Below, in pieces: positions 330-35,738 of a stretch of DNA of 35,738 nucleotides; position 1 is the stretch's first letter; each line of letters begins with the position of its first letter. The position numbers and the translations under genes were made by a program. The stretch is from Luteolibacter sp. (GTDB lineage Bacteria > Verrucomicrobiota > Verrucomicrobiia > Verrucomicrobiales > Akkermansiaceae). The stretch is taken from positions 1 through 35,738 of the forward strand of contig JAJTHK010000016.1 in assembly GCA_021298895.1 (NCBI GenBank), written 5' to 3'. A model generated the notes under the pieces. That model did no database searches. It was given only the letters and a program-made list of their open reading frames with translations, and was not told the origin of the DNA.

Positions 330-3300
330 ATGAGCTTTTCGGGGGAGTGGAATTATGCGACGGATCTGCCAGTGGTGGGAAAACGCCGCGAGTTAATTCA
401 TGCAATACGTAACCATCAGGTCGTGGTGGTCGTTTCTGACACTGGCTCCGGCAAGACCACTCAGTTGCCAAAGATGGTCGCGGAGGCTCTGGAAAATTCA
501 AAATTCAAATCTCAAATTTCAAATAAGAAGAAACTGATCGGGTGCACTCAGCCTAGGCGGATTGCGGCAGTGTCGGTGGCAAAGCGGGTTGCGGACGAGC
601 TTTCGGTGCCGCTTGGCGGTTTTGTGGGCTATCAGGTGCGCTTTGATGATACCACTTCTAGCGAGACGCGTATCAAATTCATGACCGATGGCATCCTGCT
701 TGCTGAGACCCAGGGTGATAGAAATCTCAATCGTTACGATGCACTGATTCTAGATGAAGCACATGAACGATCGCTCAATATCGATTTCCTTCTGGGATAT
801 CTCAAACAATTATTAGAACGCCGACCCGAGATGAAACTGGTCATCTCTTCCGCCACGCTCGATGCCGGTGCGTTTGCAGAATTTTTCGGTGCGGATACTC
901 CCGTCATCGAAGCTGAGGGAAGAATGTTTCCCGTAGCTGAGTTTTTCTTGCCTGGGAATGATGATGAAGAAATCGCAGCACATGTCGGAAGAGGCGTGGA
1001 TTATTTGAGCGACATCGATCCCAACGGCGACGTCCTGATCTTTCTGCCAGGTGAACGCGAGATCCGTGAAGCAACGGAGTTGTTGGAAGGACGCAATTAT
1101 CGAAACACCGAAGTCTTACCATTGTTCGCTAGGCTAGGTATGAGCGAGCAGCAACGGATTTTCCAACCCGGAAAGAAACGTCGCTTGGTGCTGGCCACGA
1201 ACGTGGCGGAAACCTCCCTGACGATTCCGCGCATCGCGTGTGTTATCGATTCCGGATTAGCGCGAGTTAGCCGCTGGAGTCCCGCTCGTGGAGTGCAGCG
1301 CTTGCAGATCGAACCGGTCAGTCAAGCTAGTGCACGCCAGCGCAAAGGTCGCTGCGGTCGGGTGCAGGATGGAATTTGTCTCCGACTTTATGAGGAAGAC
1401 GATTTGTTAGATCGCTCGGAATTCACCGATCCTGAAATCCGCCGCAGTTCACTAGCAGGAGTGATTCTGCGAATGAAAGCGCTCGGCCTTCCGGAAATTA
1501 CCGACTTTCCATTCATTGATCCGCCCAACCCAAAAGCCATATCTGAAGGCTACCGCGCCCTGCGTGAGGTCGGTGCGCTAGATCATGAAAAACGCCTCAC
1601 CGACGTCGGTCGTGAACTGGCGAAGTTGCCGGTCGATCCAAGGATGGGACGGATGTTGATCGAAGCGAAACACGAACGTTGCGAATCCGAAGTGACCATC
1701 ATCGTCGCCGGACTCGAAACCAGCGATCCACGCGAGCGTCCCACTGATAAAAAACGCGAGGCCGATGCCGCTCATGCGCAATGGAATGATCCCGACAGCG
1801 ATTTCATCGCGCTCCTGAATCTCTGGCGCGATGTCTCCAAGTTTTACGACGGTCACAAATGGAAGTGGAATCAACTGCGGAAATATTGCGGCAAACATTT
1901 CCTCAATGCGAAGCGCGTGACGGAGTGGGGAAATGTCGTTGAGGAGCTTGCTGAAATTTCAAATTTCAAATTTCAAGTTTCAAAAAAGAATGATGACTAC
2001 GGTGCGATTCATCGTTCGCTGCTTGCTGGCGCACCACGGCAGTTTGGGCTTTGGGATAAGGAAAACAAAGCTTACCGCAGTGCTTCAGGTGGATTTTTTG
2101 CGGTGTTTCCTGGATCGGGATTGTTTGGTTTGAAGAAACGCAACGAATGGTTGATGGGGCTAGAACTCGTCGAGACCACTCGCTTGTGGGCAAGGCGTGT
2201 CGCGATGATAGAACCGGAATGGGTCGAGACTGTGGCTCCGCATCTCTGCCGCAGTCGCTATGGCGAAGCTCATTGGGATGAAAAACAAGGAGCCGTATAT
2301 GGCAATGAAACCGTGATCTGCGGCGGACTGCATGTCGTCGAGGGTCGACGCGTTCACTACGGTCGGGTCGATCAAAAAGCCGCGCACGAGGTATTTCTCC
2401 GCGAAGGAATTCTCGGCGGGGGGCTTCGACGTAAAACCCGTTTTCTCGATCACATGGAAGCCATGCGAGAAGAAATCAAAGGGATTGAAGATAAGTTACG
2501 CCGACCCGGGATGTTGTGGAGTGAAGATGCGGTGGTGCGGTTTTTCGCAGCAAGAATACCCGAAGATATTTCCACAGCGGCATCCTTTCATAAATGGCGT
2601 GAGCAAAACGAAGATTCTCTCATGCTCGGGATGGCCGATGTGGTATGGGAAGATTTGATAGGATTAGAACAATTTCCAGATGCCTTGAAATACGAAGGCG
2701 AAGAATATCCAGTCTACTATCATTGTGCACCAGGTGAACGCGATGACGGTGTCACGATAGGTGTGCACGTCGATCAACTACCCAGTATGCCCGTATGGTT
2801 GCCGGAGTGGGGAGTCGATGGAAATCTTGAACAACGCGCGGAGTTTCTCATGCGCGGTTTGCCGAAAGATTACCGTAAATTATGCCAACCTATTTCAGAT
2901 ACCGCTGCTAGTTTCGCAGAGTTATGGTCGGACGCACCCAAGGAAAAGGGCATACGCGAAACCCTCTCCGAGCACATTCGCGAACGCAACGGCGCACAAA
3001 TCCCGGCTTCGGAATTCGATCTGAAAAAACTTCCCGAGGAGTTGATCACGAAAATCTGGGTATGCGATGACGAAGGCGAAGAGCTCGCCATGGGAGCCGA
3101 TGTCGCGCAGCTGAAACTCCAGCTCGCCGATCGAATGCGCGCACGCTTCGAAGCCGCTGCCACCGCCGATATCGAGCGACGCGGCATGAGCGCTTGGGAT
3201 GGCGAGAGTTTGCCCGAACAAGTCATGACCGCCGGTGGACCGGCATTTCCTGCTTTGGTGGATGAGGGTAAAACCGTCGGTGTGCGGGCCTTTACCAACC

Positions 3301-3998
3301 TTCACGAAGCCCGCGAATCCCACCGACGCGGCGGCGCGCGCTTGCTGCTGCTAGGGGCCGATCGTGAGGTCGACTACCTACGCAAAAAGTTTCCTCTTGG
3401 ATTGTTAGGAAAAGTCGAAATGCCACGGCTTGGGATAGAACTCGATGAATTACTGCTGCTCACTGCCGAGGGGGTGGTCAGGGGTGAATTTCCACGCAGT
3501 CCTCAAAACTTCGCCAAAGCCCACGAGAACGCCAAAGGCAAATGGTTCGATGCCGCGACCCAAATCGGACAAGCCCTCGATGAAATCGTCACTGCCGAGC
3601 GCACAGTTCGCACATGGATCACCTCGCATCAAGGGGATCGCAATTTCGGCGAAATCGCCACCGACCTCGACCAACAACTCTCCTGGCTCATGCGCGAGGG
3701 TTTCGTGTGGAAAACCGGGTTCCAACATTTCATCGATCTCCCCAGAAGATTCCGCGCCATTCGTTCCCGCCTCGGTCGCATCGAAAGTTTACCCCTTGTC
3801 AAAGACCTTGAAAAAATGAACCTCATCAGCTCGCTGTGGAATAAGTGGTACAAGCGCTGGACATCCAATCCTAACAATCCCGCACTATGGGAAATCGGCT
3901 GGTTACTAGAAGAATGGCGAATCCAAACGTTTGCGCCTGATGTGGAACTGAAAGCCAAAACCTCAGAGAAAATCATTAAGACGAAGATGGGGGAATAA
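330..3998 (+). CDS. hrpA: ATP-dependent RNA helicase HrpA (DEAH box)
   Basis: This is a 1222-residue DEAH-box RNA helicase of the HrpA family (E. coli HrpA is about 1300 residues). It is a cytosolic enzyme that uses NTP hydrolysis to remodel RNA or RNP, and is linked in E. coli to mRNA processing and ribosome rescue. Visible motifs are Walker A GSGKTT (residues 39-44), TQPRR motif Ia (about 73-77), DEAH (142-145), SAT (174-176) and the motif VI region QRKGRCGR (about 337-344). These are followed by the HA2/OB-fold region and a long C-terminal DUF3418-type domain. Two short lysine/serine/asparagine-rich stretches (residues 56-67 and 543-553) are encoded by copies of a dispersed AAATTTC-type DNA repeat and look like in-frame insertions. 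A REP-type inverted repeat begins at the base after the stop codon. The start at 330 has no strong Shine-Dalgarno sequence but fits the family N-terminus. Confidence 0.95.
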   Translation: MSFSGEWNYATDLPVVGKRRELIHAIRNHQVVVVVSDTGSGKTTQLPKMVAEALENSKFKSQISNKKKLIGCTQPRRIAAVSVAKRVADELSVPLGGFVGYQVRFDDTTSSETRIKFMTDGILLAETQGDRNLNRYDALILDEAHERSLNIDFLLGYLKQLLERRPEMKLVISSATLDAGAFAEFFGADTPVIEAEGRMFPVAEFFLPGNDDEEIAAHVGRGVDYLSDIDPNGDVLIFLPGEREIREATELLEGRNYRNTEVLPLFARLGMSEQQRIFQPGKKRRLVLATNVAETSLTIPRIACVIDSGLARVSRWSPARGVQRLQIEPVSQASARQRKGRCGRVQDGICLRLYEEDDLLDRSEFTDPEIRRSSLAGVILRMKALGLPEITDFPFIDPPNPKAISEGYRALREVGALDHEKRLTDVGRELAKLPVDPRMGRMLIEAKHERCESEVTIIVAGLETSDPRERPTDKKREADAAHAQWNDPDSDFIALLNLWRDVSKFYDGHKWKWNQLRKYCGKHFLNAKRVTEWGNVVEELAEISNFKFQVSKKNDDYGAIHRSLLAGAPRQFGLWDKENKAYRSASGGFFAVFPGSGLFGLKKRNEWLMGLELVETTRLWARRVAMIEPEWVETVAPHLCRSRYGEAHWDEKQGAVYGNETVICGGLHVVEGRRVHYGRVDQKAAHEVFLREGILGGGLRRKTRFLDHMEAMREEIKGIEDKLRRPGMLWSEDAVVRFFAARIPEDISTAASFHKWREQNEDSLMLGMADVVWEDLIGLEQFPDALKYEGEEYPVYYHCAPGERDDGVTIGVHVDQLPSMPVWLPEWGVDGNLEQRAEFLMRGLPKDYRKLCQPISDTAASFAELWSDAPKEKGIRETLSEHIRERNGAQIPASEFDLKKLPEELITKIWVCDDEGEELAMGADVAQLKLQLADRMRARFEAAATADIERRGMSAWDGESLPEQVMTAGGPAFPALVDEGKTVGVRAFTNLHEARESHRRGGARLLLLGADREVDYLRKKFPLGLLGKVEMPRLGIELDELLLLTAEGVVRGEFPRSPQNFAKAHENAKGKWFDAATQIGQALDEIVTAERTVRTWITSHQGDRNFGEIATDLDQQLSWLMREGFVWKTGFQHFIDLPRRFRAIRSRLGRIESLPLVKDLEKMNLISSLWNKWYKRWTSNPNNPALWEIGWLLEEWRIQTFAPDVELKAKTSEKIIKTKMGE
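491..530 (+). repeat. AAATTTC-type repeat copy inside hrpA (copy 1)
   Basis: This A/T-rich stretch has an 8-9 base period (units like AAATTCA, AAATCTC, AAATTTC) and encodes hrpA residues 56-67. It lies between the Walker A motif and the TQPRR motif, where helicases of this family normally have a short loop. It matches the intergenic repeat at 10111-10146 and the second hrpA copy at 1953-1992. Confidence 0.7.
1953..1992 (+). repeat. AAATTTC-type repeat copy inside hrpA (copy 2)
   Basis: Second in-frame copy of the AAATTTC-type repeat, encoding residues ISNFKFQVS (543-551). Aligned to copy 1 (SKFKSQIS), the repeat is read in exactly the same codon phase. It sits in a linker just before the conserved YGAIHRSLLAG segment. 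Confidence 0.7.
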
Positions 3999-9140: not shown

Positions 9141-9166
9141 GTGAATGATGAATAGTGAAGAGTGAA
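9141..9166 (+). repeat. Single arm of the TTCACTCTTCACCA-type repeat
   Basis: A stretch of GTGAATGATGAATAGTGAAG type with short-period degenerate units, matching the left arm at 32279-32304 and the reverse complement of 32397-32460. No matching inverted arm is found nearby. It directly joins the ATCGCCGAG-loop unit at 9167. Confidence 0.65.
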
Positions 9167-9202
9167 GGTAGGGCGCTATCGCCGAGAGCGCCGCATGGAA
9201 TG
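9167..9202 (+). repeat. ATCGCCGAG-loop repeat, single unit
   Basis: Nearly identical to 7765-7800 but with stem GGCGCT/AGCGCC instead of GGTGCC/GGCACC. Both stem differences (T-A to C-G and C-G to T-A) keep pairing, while the nine-base loop ATCGCCGAG is unchanged. It is followed by the same GCATGGAATG tail. Confidence 0.75.
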
Positions 9203-9277
9203 AAGAGTGATTTGTGAAACTGCTGATGAAGTATAAGCGCTGAGGACTATAATCAAGAGCAAGAAAGCCTTTTTATC

Positions 9278-9312
9278 TAGTTTCTGGATTCTGGCCTCTA
9301 CGCTCTACGCTC
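9278..9312 (+). repeat. Single arm of the CTGGATTCTG-type repeat
   Basis: The sequence TAGTTTCTGGATTCTGGCCT and the CTACGCTCTACGCTCT that follows resemble the right arm of the inverted repeat at 25842-25873. It runs into the 3' end of trpA. No opposite arm is seen nearby. Confidence 0.5.
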
Positions 9313-10096
9313 TCACCGCCTCAATCAACGGCTTGGCAAAATCCCTGACGGCCTGGGCTGGATTGGAGAGGTTTTCCTCGATGCGTTTGACGATAGCGGA
9401 ACCAACGATCACGCCGTCGGCGGATTTTGCGACGAGGGCGGCTTGTTCTGGATTGGAAATTCCAAATCCGACACAGACGGGGACTTTGCTGTGCTGTTTG
9501 ATGGCGGCGACCTGAGCTGGAATCGTGGCGGCTGGAGCAGAATGTCCGCCAGTGACTCCGCTGCGGGATAGCGCGTAAATGAAACCCTCGGCTTTTTCGG
9601 CGAGCATTTTGATCCGATCCGGTGGAGTCGATGGTGCGATCAGGCGGATGTGGGAGAGGGACTTATTTTCCGCAAGCTCGGCGGAGAGTTCAGCCTCATC
9701 CGGAGGAAGGTCTAACAATAAAATCCCATCCGCGCCGGCTGCAGCCGCGTCTTTTTGGAAACGCGAAAAGCCATAGGTGAAAATCGGGTTCAAATATGTG
9801 AAGAGAACGATAGGGGTGTTGTTGTTCTTTTCTCGAAACGCTTTAATCAAGTCCAGCGTCCGTGCCGTAGTCATGCCTGCTTTCAAAGCACGATCCGCTG
9901 CCATCTGGTTGACGATACCATCGGCCAAAGGATCGGAGAACGGCAACCCAAGTTCAATCACATCGGCCCCGATATCCGCCAATGTATGCATTACCTCCAA
10001 AGAAAGTTCAAACGAAGGATCGCCAGCCGCCACATAGGCAATGAAGGCTTTTTGATTCTGTTTTTTGAGAGTGGCAAACGTATGGTCGAGGCGCAT
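9305..10096 (-). CDS. trpA: Tryptophan synthase alpha subunit
   Basis: A 263-residue TIM-barrel subunit that cleaves indole-3-glycerol phosphate to indole and glyceraldehyde-3-phosphate, normally in an alpha2beta2 complex with TrpB. Catalytic residues are visible as Glu48 in DVIELGLPFSDP and Asp59 in PLADG. The phosphate-binding end SGVTGGHSA and VGFGISNPEQA are also present. Length is normal. No trpB is next to it. In this window trpE and trpG lie 20 kb away, so tryptophan genes are dispersed. The gene is flanked on both sides by intergenic repeats, so it is probably transcribed alone or with an unseen signal. Confidence 0.96.
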   Translation of the reverse strand: MRLDHTFATLKKQNQKAFIAYVAAGDPSFELSLEVMHTLADIGADVIELGLPFSDPLADGIVNQMAADRALKAGMTTARTLDLIKAFREKNNNTPIVLFTYLNPIFTYGFSRFQKDAAAAGADGILLLDLPPDEAELSAELAENKSLSHIRLIAPSTPPDRIKMLAEKAEGFIYALSRSGVTGGHSAPAATIPAQVAAIKQHSKVPVCVGFGISNPEQAALVAKSADGVIVGSAIVKRIEENLSNPAQAVRDFAKPLIEAVRA

Positions 10097-10110: not shown

Positions 10111-10298
10111 CTTCAAATTCCAAATTCCAAATCTCAAATTTCAATTATGAAGAATTAAACGGAGGGAGCGGAGGTGCGGAGAAAACGGAGAAAGACTCTA
10201 AATACTACTTGGAAATGAGGTAATTGGTGGGGAGCTATTCAAGAATTACTAATTTGAAATTAACCTCCGTTTTCTCCGCGCCTCAGTTGTCTCCGTTT
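10111..10298. repeat. Nested inverted repeats: AAATTCC type and ACGGAG type
   Basis: The outer left part (10111-10146) is the AAATTCC/AAATTTC repeat with an 8-9 base period. A short inverted match AATTTGAAAT lies at 10251-10260. The inner or adjacent pair is a G/A-rich arm at 10158-10196 (units like ACGGAG, GCGGAG) and its inverted counterpart at 10262-10298 (CTCCGTTTTCTCCGCG and similar). The loop is AT-rich. The region fills the gap between trpA and the S10 carboxypeptidase gene. Confidence 0.75.
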
Positions 10299-10330
10299 TT
10301 AAATACGCCTGAAACACCCAGAGGCTCTCT

Positions 10331-27596: not shown

Positions 27597-27672
27597 GAAG
27601 AGTTCTTGGTTCTTAGTTGAGCTTCGCGCTGCATTTTTCTGCTAACTAGGAACAAGGAGCTAGGAACTAGAA
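27597..27672. repeat. Inverted repeat with TTCTTGGTTCTTAG-type arms between convergent genes
   Basis: The left arm 27597-27622 and right arm 27641-27672 are imperfect inverted copies made of TTGGTTCTTAG / CTAGGAACAAGG units, with a short T-rich middle. It fills the gap between convergent ppaC and the 429-residue gene, overlapping the latter's stop codon region. In this place it could end both transcripts. Confidence 0.8.
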
Positions 27673-28956
27673 AACCTCCCCCACCACACACGGCACAAGG
27701 ATACCATCGCTCATGCCGTGGATTTTTTTCTTATCTGCTGGGACTAAAGTCGCCAAGCATCCGCCAAAGGTGGTTTCGCCCTGCTTATCGGTGAAGAAAT
27801 AAGGACACAACCTCGCTCTGACCTCTAACATTTTTACTTCACCGTCCTCTGTGTATATTGGATGCATGAAGCGTCTACCTTCGTGAAATTCTTGCATCAG
27901 CCAAGGTTGCTCTCCGAATTGTGAAAGTGCGTATCCAATTTTTTCTTGCCACTCCGCGGCTGGTAAATCATGCCCGATAAACACTCCACGAGAACCCCAG
28001 GCGGTTTCGTGAAAGCCACTGATTTTTAAAACCAGCTGACGGTCTTTTTGAGAAAACTCTCCGACCTCAGCCCATGAATGCGCGTTGAGCCGCGGCAGCG
28101 CCGCATGTGGCGGCAGAGGCTCTGGATCCATGACCCAACCGAACGGAATCCATTCCCGTAATCTGCGCAGATGGTTTCCACGCAGGGCTTGTTCCCAGAT
28201 TTTCTTCAGAGCTGGCGACCAGAACAAGGCGAGCCAGAGCTTGTCCTCCAGATGAGCTTTAAAGGGCGGTGTTATACTGGCTTCGCCTCTAGCCGATTTT
28301 TCCGCGAGATTTCGTGCGTAAGGCATCGACTCCCAATCGAACAATTCAAAAAACCGATACATCTCTTTTCCGCATTCTTCGTATTCCTCGGCGTTTTCAA
28401 CTTTCCAATCCGCACCTAACTGCTCTGCCAGCCAAGTCATCTCGGCTCGATAATCCATCGCTTCGTCCGAAACCAAAATATCCCCACCTTCAGGCATCAG
28501 CTTTCGAAATCCATCGATCATCCCATTCGCACCACCCAACACCTCGTAACCTGCCTCTGCATATGTTTTGGAAAGCCAAGCAGTAATCCCCATTCCGCCC
28601 GGCACGCTATCGAGCTCGGAGAGGGCGAAATGTCCTTTCGCTAGAATCAGATCAGGACGGATCACTCGGGGAAATTGATCCACCATCCCGGGAGCACGTT
28701 GCAACGCGGCCAGCCAATCGGGCTTACCTTCATCTAACAACTCCGCCAACCACGAGTCGATATTACCTGTCGCAGAGCGGCGATAAAGGATATCGCAGGC
28801 TTGTTGGAATTTCGCCAGTGGATGACCCATAGCCATCATTTCCTTGGCCTCCGCTGCACTCAGCTTCAGCGGCTCAGGCGACCATTGCCAGTTCCCGCCA
28901 CCAAACAACCCACCTTCCGGCAGGTTTTTCCTCAAATCATTCAATGCAATCGCCAC
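27667..28956 (-). CDS. Protein of unknown function, possible ATP-grasp fold
   Basis: A 429-residue cytosolic-looking protein without signal peptide or membrane helices. I do not recognise a named family. The C-terminal part (VLKISGFHETAWGSRGVFIGHD, WLMQEFHEGRRFMHPIYTEDGEVKMLEVRARL) resembles an ATP-grasp ligase nucleotide pocket: a Lys in a glycine-containing loop, the QEF strand end and a later Arg-rich strand. The N-terminal region with GGMGITAWLSKTYAEAGYEVLGG suggests a substrate-binding domain like those of glutathionylspermidine-type or circularly permuted ATP-grasp enzymes. The substrate is unknown. It faces ppaC convergently and trpE divergently, with no partner in an operon. Confidence 0.75.
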   Translation of the reverse strand: MAIALNDLRKNLPEGGLFGGGNWQWSPEPLKLSAAEAKEMMAMGHPLAKFQQACDILYRRSATGNIDSWLAELLDEGKPDWLAALQRAPGMVDQFPRVIRPDLILAKGHFALSELDSVPGGMGITAWLSKTYAEAGYEVLGGANGMIDGFRKLMPEGGDILVSDEAMDYRAEMTWLAEQLGADWKVENAEEYEECGKEMYRFFELFDWESMPYARNLAEKSARGEASITPPFKAHLEDKLWLALFWSPALKKIWEQALRGNHLRRLREWIPFGWVMDPEPLPPHAALPRLNAHSWAEVGEFSQKDRQLVLKISGFHETAWGSRGVFIGHDLPAAEWQEKIGYALSQFGEQPWLMQEFHEGRRFMHPIYTEDGEVKMLEVRARLCPYFFTDKQGETTFGGCLATLVPADKKKIHGMSDGILVPCVVGEVF

Positions 28957-31361: not shown

Positions 31362-31393
31362 CGGCGATCTTCGGTCTCCGTCTTAGACAAATC

Positions 31394-31512
31394 AAAAATC
31401 CGATATCAACAATCATCAATCGTCAATCTACCTGAGCTTAGACAGAGCTAGCAATCATCCGTCAGATCGTTCGGTTTGATTTACGAATGACGATTGATGA
31501 TTGTAGATCTGC
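31394..31512. repeat. Inverted repeat with CAATCATCAATCGTCAATC-type arms
   Basis: The left arm 31394-31429 (units ATCA/ATCG of 7-8 bases) pairs with the right arm 31485-31512 (GACGATTGATGATTG type). The middle contains another short copy, CAATCATCCGTCAGATCG (31452-31469). It lies between trpG and rsmE and reaches to 17 bases before the rsmE ATG. Confidence 0.8.
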
Positions 31513-32278: not shown

Positions 32279-32460
32279 GTGAATGGTGAAGAGTGAAGAG
32301 TGAAAAAATTCAAGATACTATCAATGTTTATTCCTCTATATCTCCTTGGTTTTAAACAAGCTATGTGAGACCCTGCCTGATTTTATCAGCCAGCTCTTCT
32401 TCGCTCTTCACCATTCACTCTTCACCATTCACTCTTCACCATTCACTCTTCACCATTCAG
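32279..32460. repeat. Inverted repeat with 14-bp TTCACTCTTCACCA units
   Basis: Left arm 32279-32304 (GTGAATGGTGAAGAGTGAAG and on). The right arm (32397-32460) is the reverse complement expanded to about four copies of a 14-base unit, TTCACTCTTCACCA, which are almost identical to each other. Between them are 92 bases, mostly AT-rich. The right arm is much longer than the left, which looks like recent expansion. It lies between rsmE and panD. A single arm of this family is at 9141-9166. Confidence 0.88.
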
Positions 32461-35602: not shown

Positions 35603-35738
35603 GCTGGCCCCCAAAGTCCGGCCACTGATTGGCTAAACTAAGCTTTGGTGCTTGGATGCGTGAGATGGGTAGTAGATCATGGATAATAGATCAAGGATGG
35701 AGTTGGTGAGGGACTCGAAAATGGGAAGCTGAAGCGGA
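35600..35738. mobile_element. Possible left end of an IS3-type insertion sequence
   Basis: TGAGCTGGCCCCCAAAGTCC has the look of the terminal inverted repeat of IS3-family elements (TG start, GGCCCCCAAA). It begins exactly where the GxxExxY gene is cut. No transposase frame is established before the window ends; one short frame (GEGLENGKLKR, near 35702-35737) faintly resembles the end of an OrfA, but stop codons precede it. The sequence 35668-35700 consists of short-period GATCATGGATAATAGATCAA-type units, another repeat arm of the tandem type. Confidence 0.3.

Follow-up and report, generated by a model that had tools for sequence, protein, structure and literature searches.

Tandem arrays of heptanucleotides are a known class of bacterial repeat (PMC4679880, where Mrazek 2007 is cited for them; PMC4692102). 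The GGGAATC heptamers of Xanthomonas and the GGGGA(C/T)T heptamers of Nostoc form, like the arrays described here, tandem arrays that are mostly intergenic and whose 7-bp units have four conserved positions in a row, and those of Xanthomonas also resemble the present arrays in their frequent inverted pairs and in the conservation of their places between related species (83%) (PMC4692102). However, a Xanthomonas or Nostoc genome has a single unit, which is G-rich and could form G-quadruplexes (PMC4692102), whereas the present arrays have many units per genome, no G-tracts, a CTCTTC border, positions in internal protein loops and an exchange of units between sister species. The TAACTGA repeats of marine Beggiatoaceae are likewise heptads with stops in all frames of one strand, the other alone being translatable, and some copies lie in ORFs; they differ in having one unit, in lying mostly just upstream of start codons, in having coding copies mainly at protein ends, and in showing one inverted case (PMC4679880).

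Repeat DNA within coding regions has been described in other forms. The Rickettsia palindromic elements lie in frame in many unrelated proteins as well as between genes, as do the present arrays, but are palindromes of ~100-150 bp, whereas the arrays in hrpA described below are ~30 bp, form no hairpin and have a unit that varies between species (PMC10969869, PMC3733652). In Opitutus terrae, also a verrucomicrobium, small repeats occur within genes for the kinds of protein that also carry the present arrays, namely twice in uvrA and in DNA ligase and RNA helicase genes, but these REPs are GTAG-tagged short palindromes tied to RAYT transposases and do not form heptad arrays (PMC3733652). The GTAG/CGTC-tagged palindromes of the REP/RAYT system are not a feature of the present arrays, none of which lies beside seven RAYT places. 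The PARCEL repeats are tandem, show dyad symmetry, are translated and spread, but their repeat unit is 25 residues long and lies in ORFs of no assigned function, which are often targeted to the membrane, and they are not 7-bp arrays in core enzymes (PMC2996958). Our literature search found nothing on the present repeat in Verrucomicrobiota, and no report of several heptad families that share a border, occupy internal loops of core enzymes and are exchanged between sister species.

The stretch analysed here (the window; 35,738 nucleotides, contig C97) belongs to the 2.76-Mb, 190-contig genome of a lake bacterium of the genus Luteolibacter (G000), which among named sequences matches Akkermansiaceae/Verrucomicrobiota MAGs most closely. 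The hrpA gene (330..3998, + strand) encodes the DEAH-box RNA helicase HrpA of 1222 aa (TIGR01967, E=0, 1177 bits over 7-1220; our ORF calling procedure missed its first codons). Two heptad arrays lie within it on the + strand. Site 1 (493..524) reads AAAATTC AAAATTC AAATCTC AAATTTC AAAT, with the predicted peptide NSKFKSQISN, and site 2 (1954..1984) reads AAATTTC three times followed by AAGTTTC and AAA, with the predicted peptide EISNFKFQVSK. A third array occupies the interval between trpA and a peptidase gene (10112..10144, + strand). Tandem Repeats Finder (TRF) reported all three as AAATTTC arrays of period 7 (493-524, 4.6 copies; 1954-1984, 4.4 copies; 10114-10144, 4.4 copies), and their scores against a CAAATTY profile were 26, 28 and 33, respectively, compared with a maximum of 16 when the window was shuffled 40 times under a Markov model. 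When periods of 4-24 were scanned, only 7 and 14 were enriched in the window. Each array is followed on the + strand by a candidate copy of a GAAGAG (CTCTTC) border. At site 1, it is the diverged AAGAAG (525..530; judged from the sequence and motif statistics), with GGAAGAGG in relatives; at site 2, it is the degenerate AAAGAAT (1985..1991), which is weak in the window itself and reads GGAAGAGG in L175 and L183; and beside the intergenic array, it is the diverged GAAGAA (10149..10154). These results confirm the statements of a preliminary description of this DNA that hrpA contains two blocks akin to the intergenic array, and that they encode the peptides it gave.

The preliminary description also placed both blocks in linkers, and this agrees with an AlphaFold model of HrpA residues 1-760 (mean pLDDT 82), in which sites 1 and 2 form low-confidence loops at 56-68 and 545-556, the latter between two helices. 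In contrast, the identical codon phase that it had offered as evidence is uninformative. Because a 7-bp repeat passes through all three codon phases in every 21 bases, (AAATTTC)n encodes KFQISNF in every frame, rotated only, and a shared phase is automatic for period 7 and no sign of an insertion rule. The opposite strand, (GAAATTT)n, contains TGA in every frame. The peptide match and the single orientation therefore follow from the DNA, and no insertion rule is needed.

The HrpA orthologues (30 aligned loci and further genome contigs) were compared site by site, with clades I and II defined by a five-protein tree. The insert at site 1 is absent in clade II and the outgroups, which have a linker of the GDDGGRIGC type, and the clade I species sampled all have extra residues there. 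CAAATTT-type arrays were found at site 1 in G000, G021, L154, L155, L175 and L183. In G016, whose HrpA is 92% identical, the same site reads GCCAGAG GTCAGAA TCCAGAG ACCAGAC (CAGANNN units), and this unit change is accompanied by a length change of 6 bases. The units are of the ATCAGGG type in G004 and of the TTAAACT type in L181, and in G005, CCAGAG arrays form an inverted pair in frame. Since the site 1 arrays of G000 and G021 are mostly identical letter by letter, CAAATTT is likely the older unit at this site, and the other units would be replacements.

At site 2, a CAAATTT-type array was found in G000, G016, L155, L164, L170, L175, L181 and L183, with the GAAGAG border intact in several of these species, and CAGA-type heptads were found in L163 and G004. 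Clade II has a linker without repeat at this place, of similar or greater length, and the preliminary statement that the repeat "entered" hrpA twice therefore suits site 1, which gained its insert in comparison with the sister clade, better than site 2. A recent double insertion is at odds with the sharing of the site 1 array with G021, L154, L155, L175 and L183, and of the site 2 array with G016 and six further loci. Distant HrpA homologues lack both peptides, and the same peptides encoded by unrelated DNA were not found among them. The proposed likeness to the Rickettsia palindromic elements holds only in idea and not in structure, since neither copy in hrpA folds into a hairpin (fold z +1.3 for site 1 and +0.6 for site 2). 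What the preliminary description missed is the exchange of heptad units between sister species at one site.

Such exchanges were also seen elsewhere. Between the same flanks, the trpA-peptidase interval holds CAAATTT heptads in G000 and TTTAAAC heptads in G016, and at L080:2319-2406, six AGAGTCC units in G000 correspond to six AGAGCAC units in G016, all units being altered alike. At a site near residue 1044 of UvrA, seven species have arrays of exactly 60 bases with differing units, and an eighth, G021, has an array with a longer spacer. Over all sites, 30 pairs of arrays were equal in length but different in unit, and 25 of them kept the register, compared with 4.6 expected, although 20 of the 30 come from the one UvrA site and are non-independent. 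Units were also exchanged between species at a site in PurL. A 157-bp mosaic array (L076:18970-19126) passes from GTTCTTA-type to AAATTTG heptads with the 7-bp register retained; the G016 interval is short. A clear empty site with target duplication was not seen in 29 syntenic comparisons between G000 and G016, in which the flanks are diverged.

Heptad arrays of several units lie within UvrA, a UvrA paralogue, PurL (FGAM synthase), MutS, LigA, a U32 peptidase and, in G016, LeuRS (assigned by Pfam and NCBIfam), so that arrays are in frame in proteins as unrelated as HrpA, UvrA, PurL, LigA, MutS and LeuRS. They encode peptides of ~10-15 residues with a 7-residue cycle. The arrays are dispersed and mainly intergenic, with 17 of 120 inside called ORFs. 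For CAAATTT, 41 separate arrays with at most one mismatch were found genome-wide, and 11 of them lie in open frames of at least 200 codons. Two of the 11 are in HrpA and one each in PurL, LigA and the U32 protein, all five in the stop-free orientation; the remaining six are candidate coding copies only. A CAAATTT array in LeuRS is kept in five species, including G004 with 60% G+C. The preliminary view that the repeat is dispersed and also occurs in other proteins is thus borne out by PurL, LigA and the U32 peptidase in G000 and by LeuRS in relatives, the confirmed cases being on the stop-free strand.

In species that had not been used to find the sites, period-7 DNA (score threshold 10) was present in 49 of 111 orthologous stretches from 12 linkers of five proteins, compared with 1.6% of random stretches taken from the same genes away from the array sites; other periods gave 0-1. 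At the UvrA site marked by GT(L/I)PW, the unit is AATCAAA in G000, CAAATCT in G016 and G022, CACTGAT in G021, CACTTCT in G004 and CTGAAAC in G005, and G001 and G015 have inverted CAGTGAT...CACTGAT pairs. Whole inverted pairs are in frame in HrpA of G005 and in UvrA of G001, G015 and G004, with fold z values of -3.4 (G005) and -6.3 (G001).

In-frame insertions of other kinds were also noticed. In LeuRS of G016 (L199:1438-4671, +), a REP-associated tyrosine transposase domain (NF047646, 79.9 bits) with inverted REP borders lies in frame in the editing region. This insertion is also present in G014 and G017; the site holds a REP pair alone in G001, a different palindrome in G022, and nothing in G004, G021, G015 and G009. 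The same transposase family (NF047646) is in frame and without stop codons in IspG (GcpE) of G000 (L142:13934-16438, +) and in the MetH activation domain of G000 (L092:2189-5602, -). A Kinase-PolyVal domain (PF18762), which has stand-alone relatives elsewhere, is in frame at residues ~182-440 of LigA (L091:737-3661, +; E 4e-9) and in PurL of G022 (L236; E 1e-31), with similar inserts in G002 and G017.

Between genes, the arrays are often paired. The window contains an inverted pair of AATCNNN heptad arms that forms a hairpin (31389..31508; arms 31389-31428 and 31478-31508; fold z -4.3), a second with TTCACTC-type arms (32279..32459; arms 32279-32304 and 32398-32459; TRF and inverted-pair search), and a third of AACTAGG/AACCAAG-type heptads (GTTCTTGGTTCTTAGTT ... 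AACTAGGAAC...; 27602..27673), whose right array (27644-27673) was found by score and whose left arm was read from the sequence. Arrays of GTGAANN-type heptads (9142..9167; found by score, with no array in the corresponding G016 interval) and of mixed CTCTNNN/TCTGG units (9276..9313; score and G016 comparison) are also present. Same-family arrays at most 150 bp apart were inverted in 18 cases and direct in one. Of six inverted pairs that were folded, L074:6155-6256 gave the best structure, a near-perfect ~37-bp stem enclosing a 17-base loop (z -11.3); z was -2.2 to -5.8 for the remaining five. Other repeats of the window include another dispersed palindrome type beside the intergenic array (10180-10310; inverted CGGAGG...GGAGAAAACGGAG / CTCCGTTTTCTCCGCGCCTC) and a 14-base repeat close to where the contig ends, which may be a pair of linked heptads (35665-35698; ATGGATAATAGATC, 2.4 copies by TRF).

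Arrays of several unit families share the CTCTTC border at their loop-side end. When arrays that themselves contain CTCTTC were left out, 23 of the 224 flanks had the motif pointing at the array from no more than 14 bases away, compared with ~1.1 expected (P 2e-22), and the reverse orientation was found twice; the trend in G016 was alike (4 vs 0.2). Mismatches between units spare four adjacent positions and gather in the other three (149 vs 530; phase-permuted null 198, minimum 176), and no common family has a GGG tract in its consensus unit. NNYCANN on one strand accounts for 61% of units, compared with 41% in shuffled sequences and at most 59% in 500 shuffles, a modest excess among non-independent units, and one universal NNYCANN unit was rejected on this basis. 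A terminator role was also rejected: arrays lie in 32 of 122 tandem, 5 of 21 divergent and 5 of 20 convergent intergenic regions, without convergent or tandem preference. RAYT transposases were rejected as likely movers of the arrays, the seven RAYT places inspected having other palindromes and no adjoining heptad arrays.

Period 7 and its multiples dominate the sampled G000 DNA, and Markov sequence yields 0. Because the main G000 sample was drawn mostly from contigs with CAAATTT matches, array densities in it are overestimated; eight G000 contigs chosen regardless of matches held 3 arrays in 93 kb. CAAATYY arrays are scattered through the phylum (27 of 289 genomes), which rules out restriction of the array family to the genus.

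These results suggest that the hrpA blocks are, as we consider probable, coding members of genus-wide degenerate 7-bp arrays that are rewritten in register at old, tolerated sites. Against this reading stands the possibility that mobile palindromic elements whose arms consist of heptads enter the same permissive loops again and again, as the Rickettsia palindromic elements do, and that differing units are separate gains and losses. The common border of the inverted pairs, the whole pairs in frame in HrpA of G005 and in UvrA of G001, G015 and G004, and the exact 24-base copies at distant places speak for such elements. However, at UvrA 1044, length and register are kept despite the unit change among eight species (seven of equal length), the 29 syntenic comparisons, with their diverged flanks, gave no clear empty site with target duplication, and a transposase linked to the arrays was not found, the inspected RAYT copies adjoining other palindromes. 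We therefore regard repeated insertion as rather unlikely. Ordinary period-7 replication slippage, which would create new arrays in linkers that are AT-rich or under loose constraint, their units being alike by chance, is less probable still. Heptanucleotide repeats are over-represented in many bacteria, for which polymerase slippage has been proposed (PMC4679880), and pure arrays of at least six equal units are present here. Slippage at separate sites would not be expected to produce a border motif independent of the unit family, inverted pairing, or exact 24-mers of unlike heptads common to distant arrays, nor does it agree with mismatches that spare four adjacent unit positions.

That SNFKFQIS is a selected protein motif, the likeness of the DNA being secondary, seems very improbable. 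The retention of the LeuRS CAAATTT array in five species, even in the 60% G+C genome of G004, is in its favour, but sister species hold unrelated peptides at the HrpA, PurL and UvrA sites, the same DNA also lies between genes with a period of 7, no multiple of 3, and the same peptide from unrelated codons was not found in distant relatives. Chance or an assembly artefact is the least credible explanation. The genomes used are mostly metagenome assemblies, but shuffles scored at most 16 compared with the observed 26-33, and assemblies made independently have arrays at the same sites. G004, a single contig of 4.39 Mb, has the same pattern, making assembly error an unlikely explanation.

Many intergenic arrays are paired as opposite arms of one hairpin, whose loop side carries GAAGAG...CTCTTC, and in proteins, as the comparison of species shows, the arrays persist mostly as single arms and sometimes as whole inverted pairs, in the stop-free orientation and in flexible linkers that tolerate them. 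The pattern observed is that a resident array stays where it is, often with length and 7-bp register unchanged, while its units are swapped together for another heptad variant. In the proposed mechanism, the rewriting would proceed by template switching, or by ectopic gene conversion, among arrays or hairpin arms that match in part, with 7-bp slippage as a possible added contributor, and selection would hold the net length at a multiple of three. The function of the peptide would not be needed, the linkers being tolerated places and the peptides presumably without function. Rewriting in register is preferred over fresh insertion because of the kept length and register and the in-register mosaics. 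Conversely, the whole inverted pairs in UvrA and HrpA of relatives and the shared 24-mers indicate that copying between places also occurs, and that pure in-place rewriting is insufficient. More tentatively, and with some doubt, one dedicated process that uses a conserved 4-base anchor at 7-base spacing beside the CTCTTC core may rewrite arrays in register genome-wide and change the loops of essential enzymes within the genus, as a DNA-repeat-driven concerted evolution of protein linkers.

Seven is a preferred length for long bacterial repeat units, and the orthologous sites in a dozen related genomes offer a way to measure the process behind it. Linker differences in the helicases, UvrA, PurL and LeuRS of such bacteria call for caution, as they can be repeat DNA and not adaptation. 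Heptad arrays are also a source of new protein loop sequence besides point mutation of the gene.
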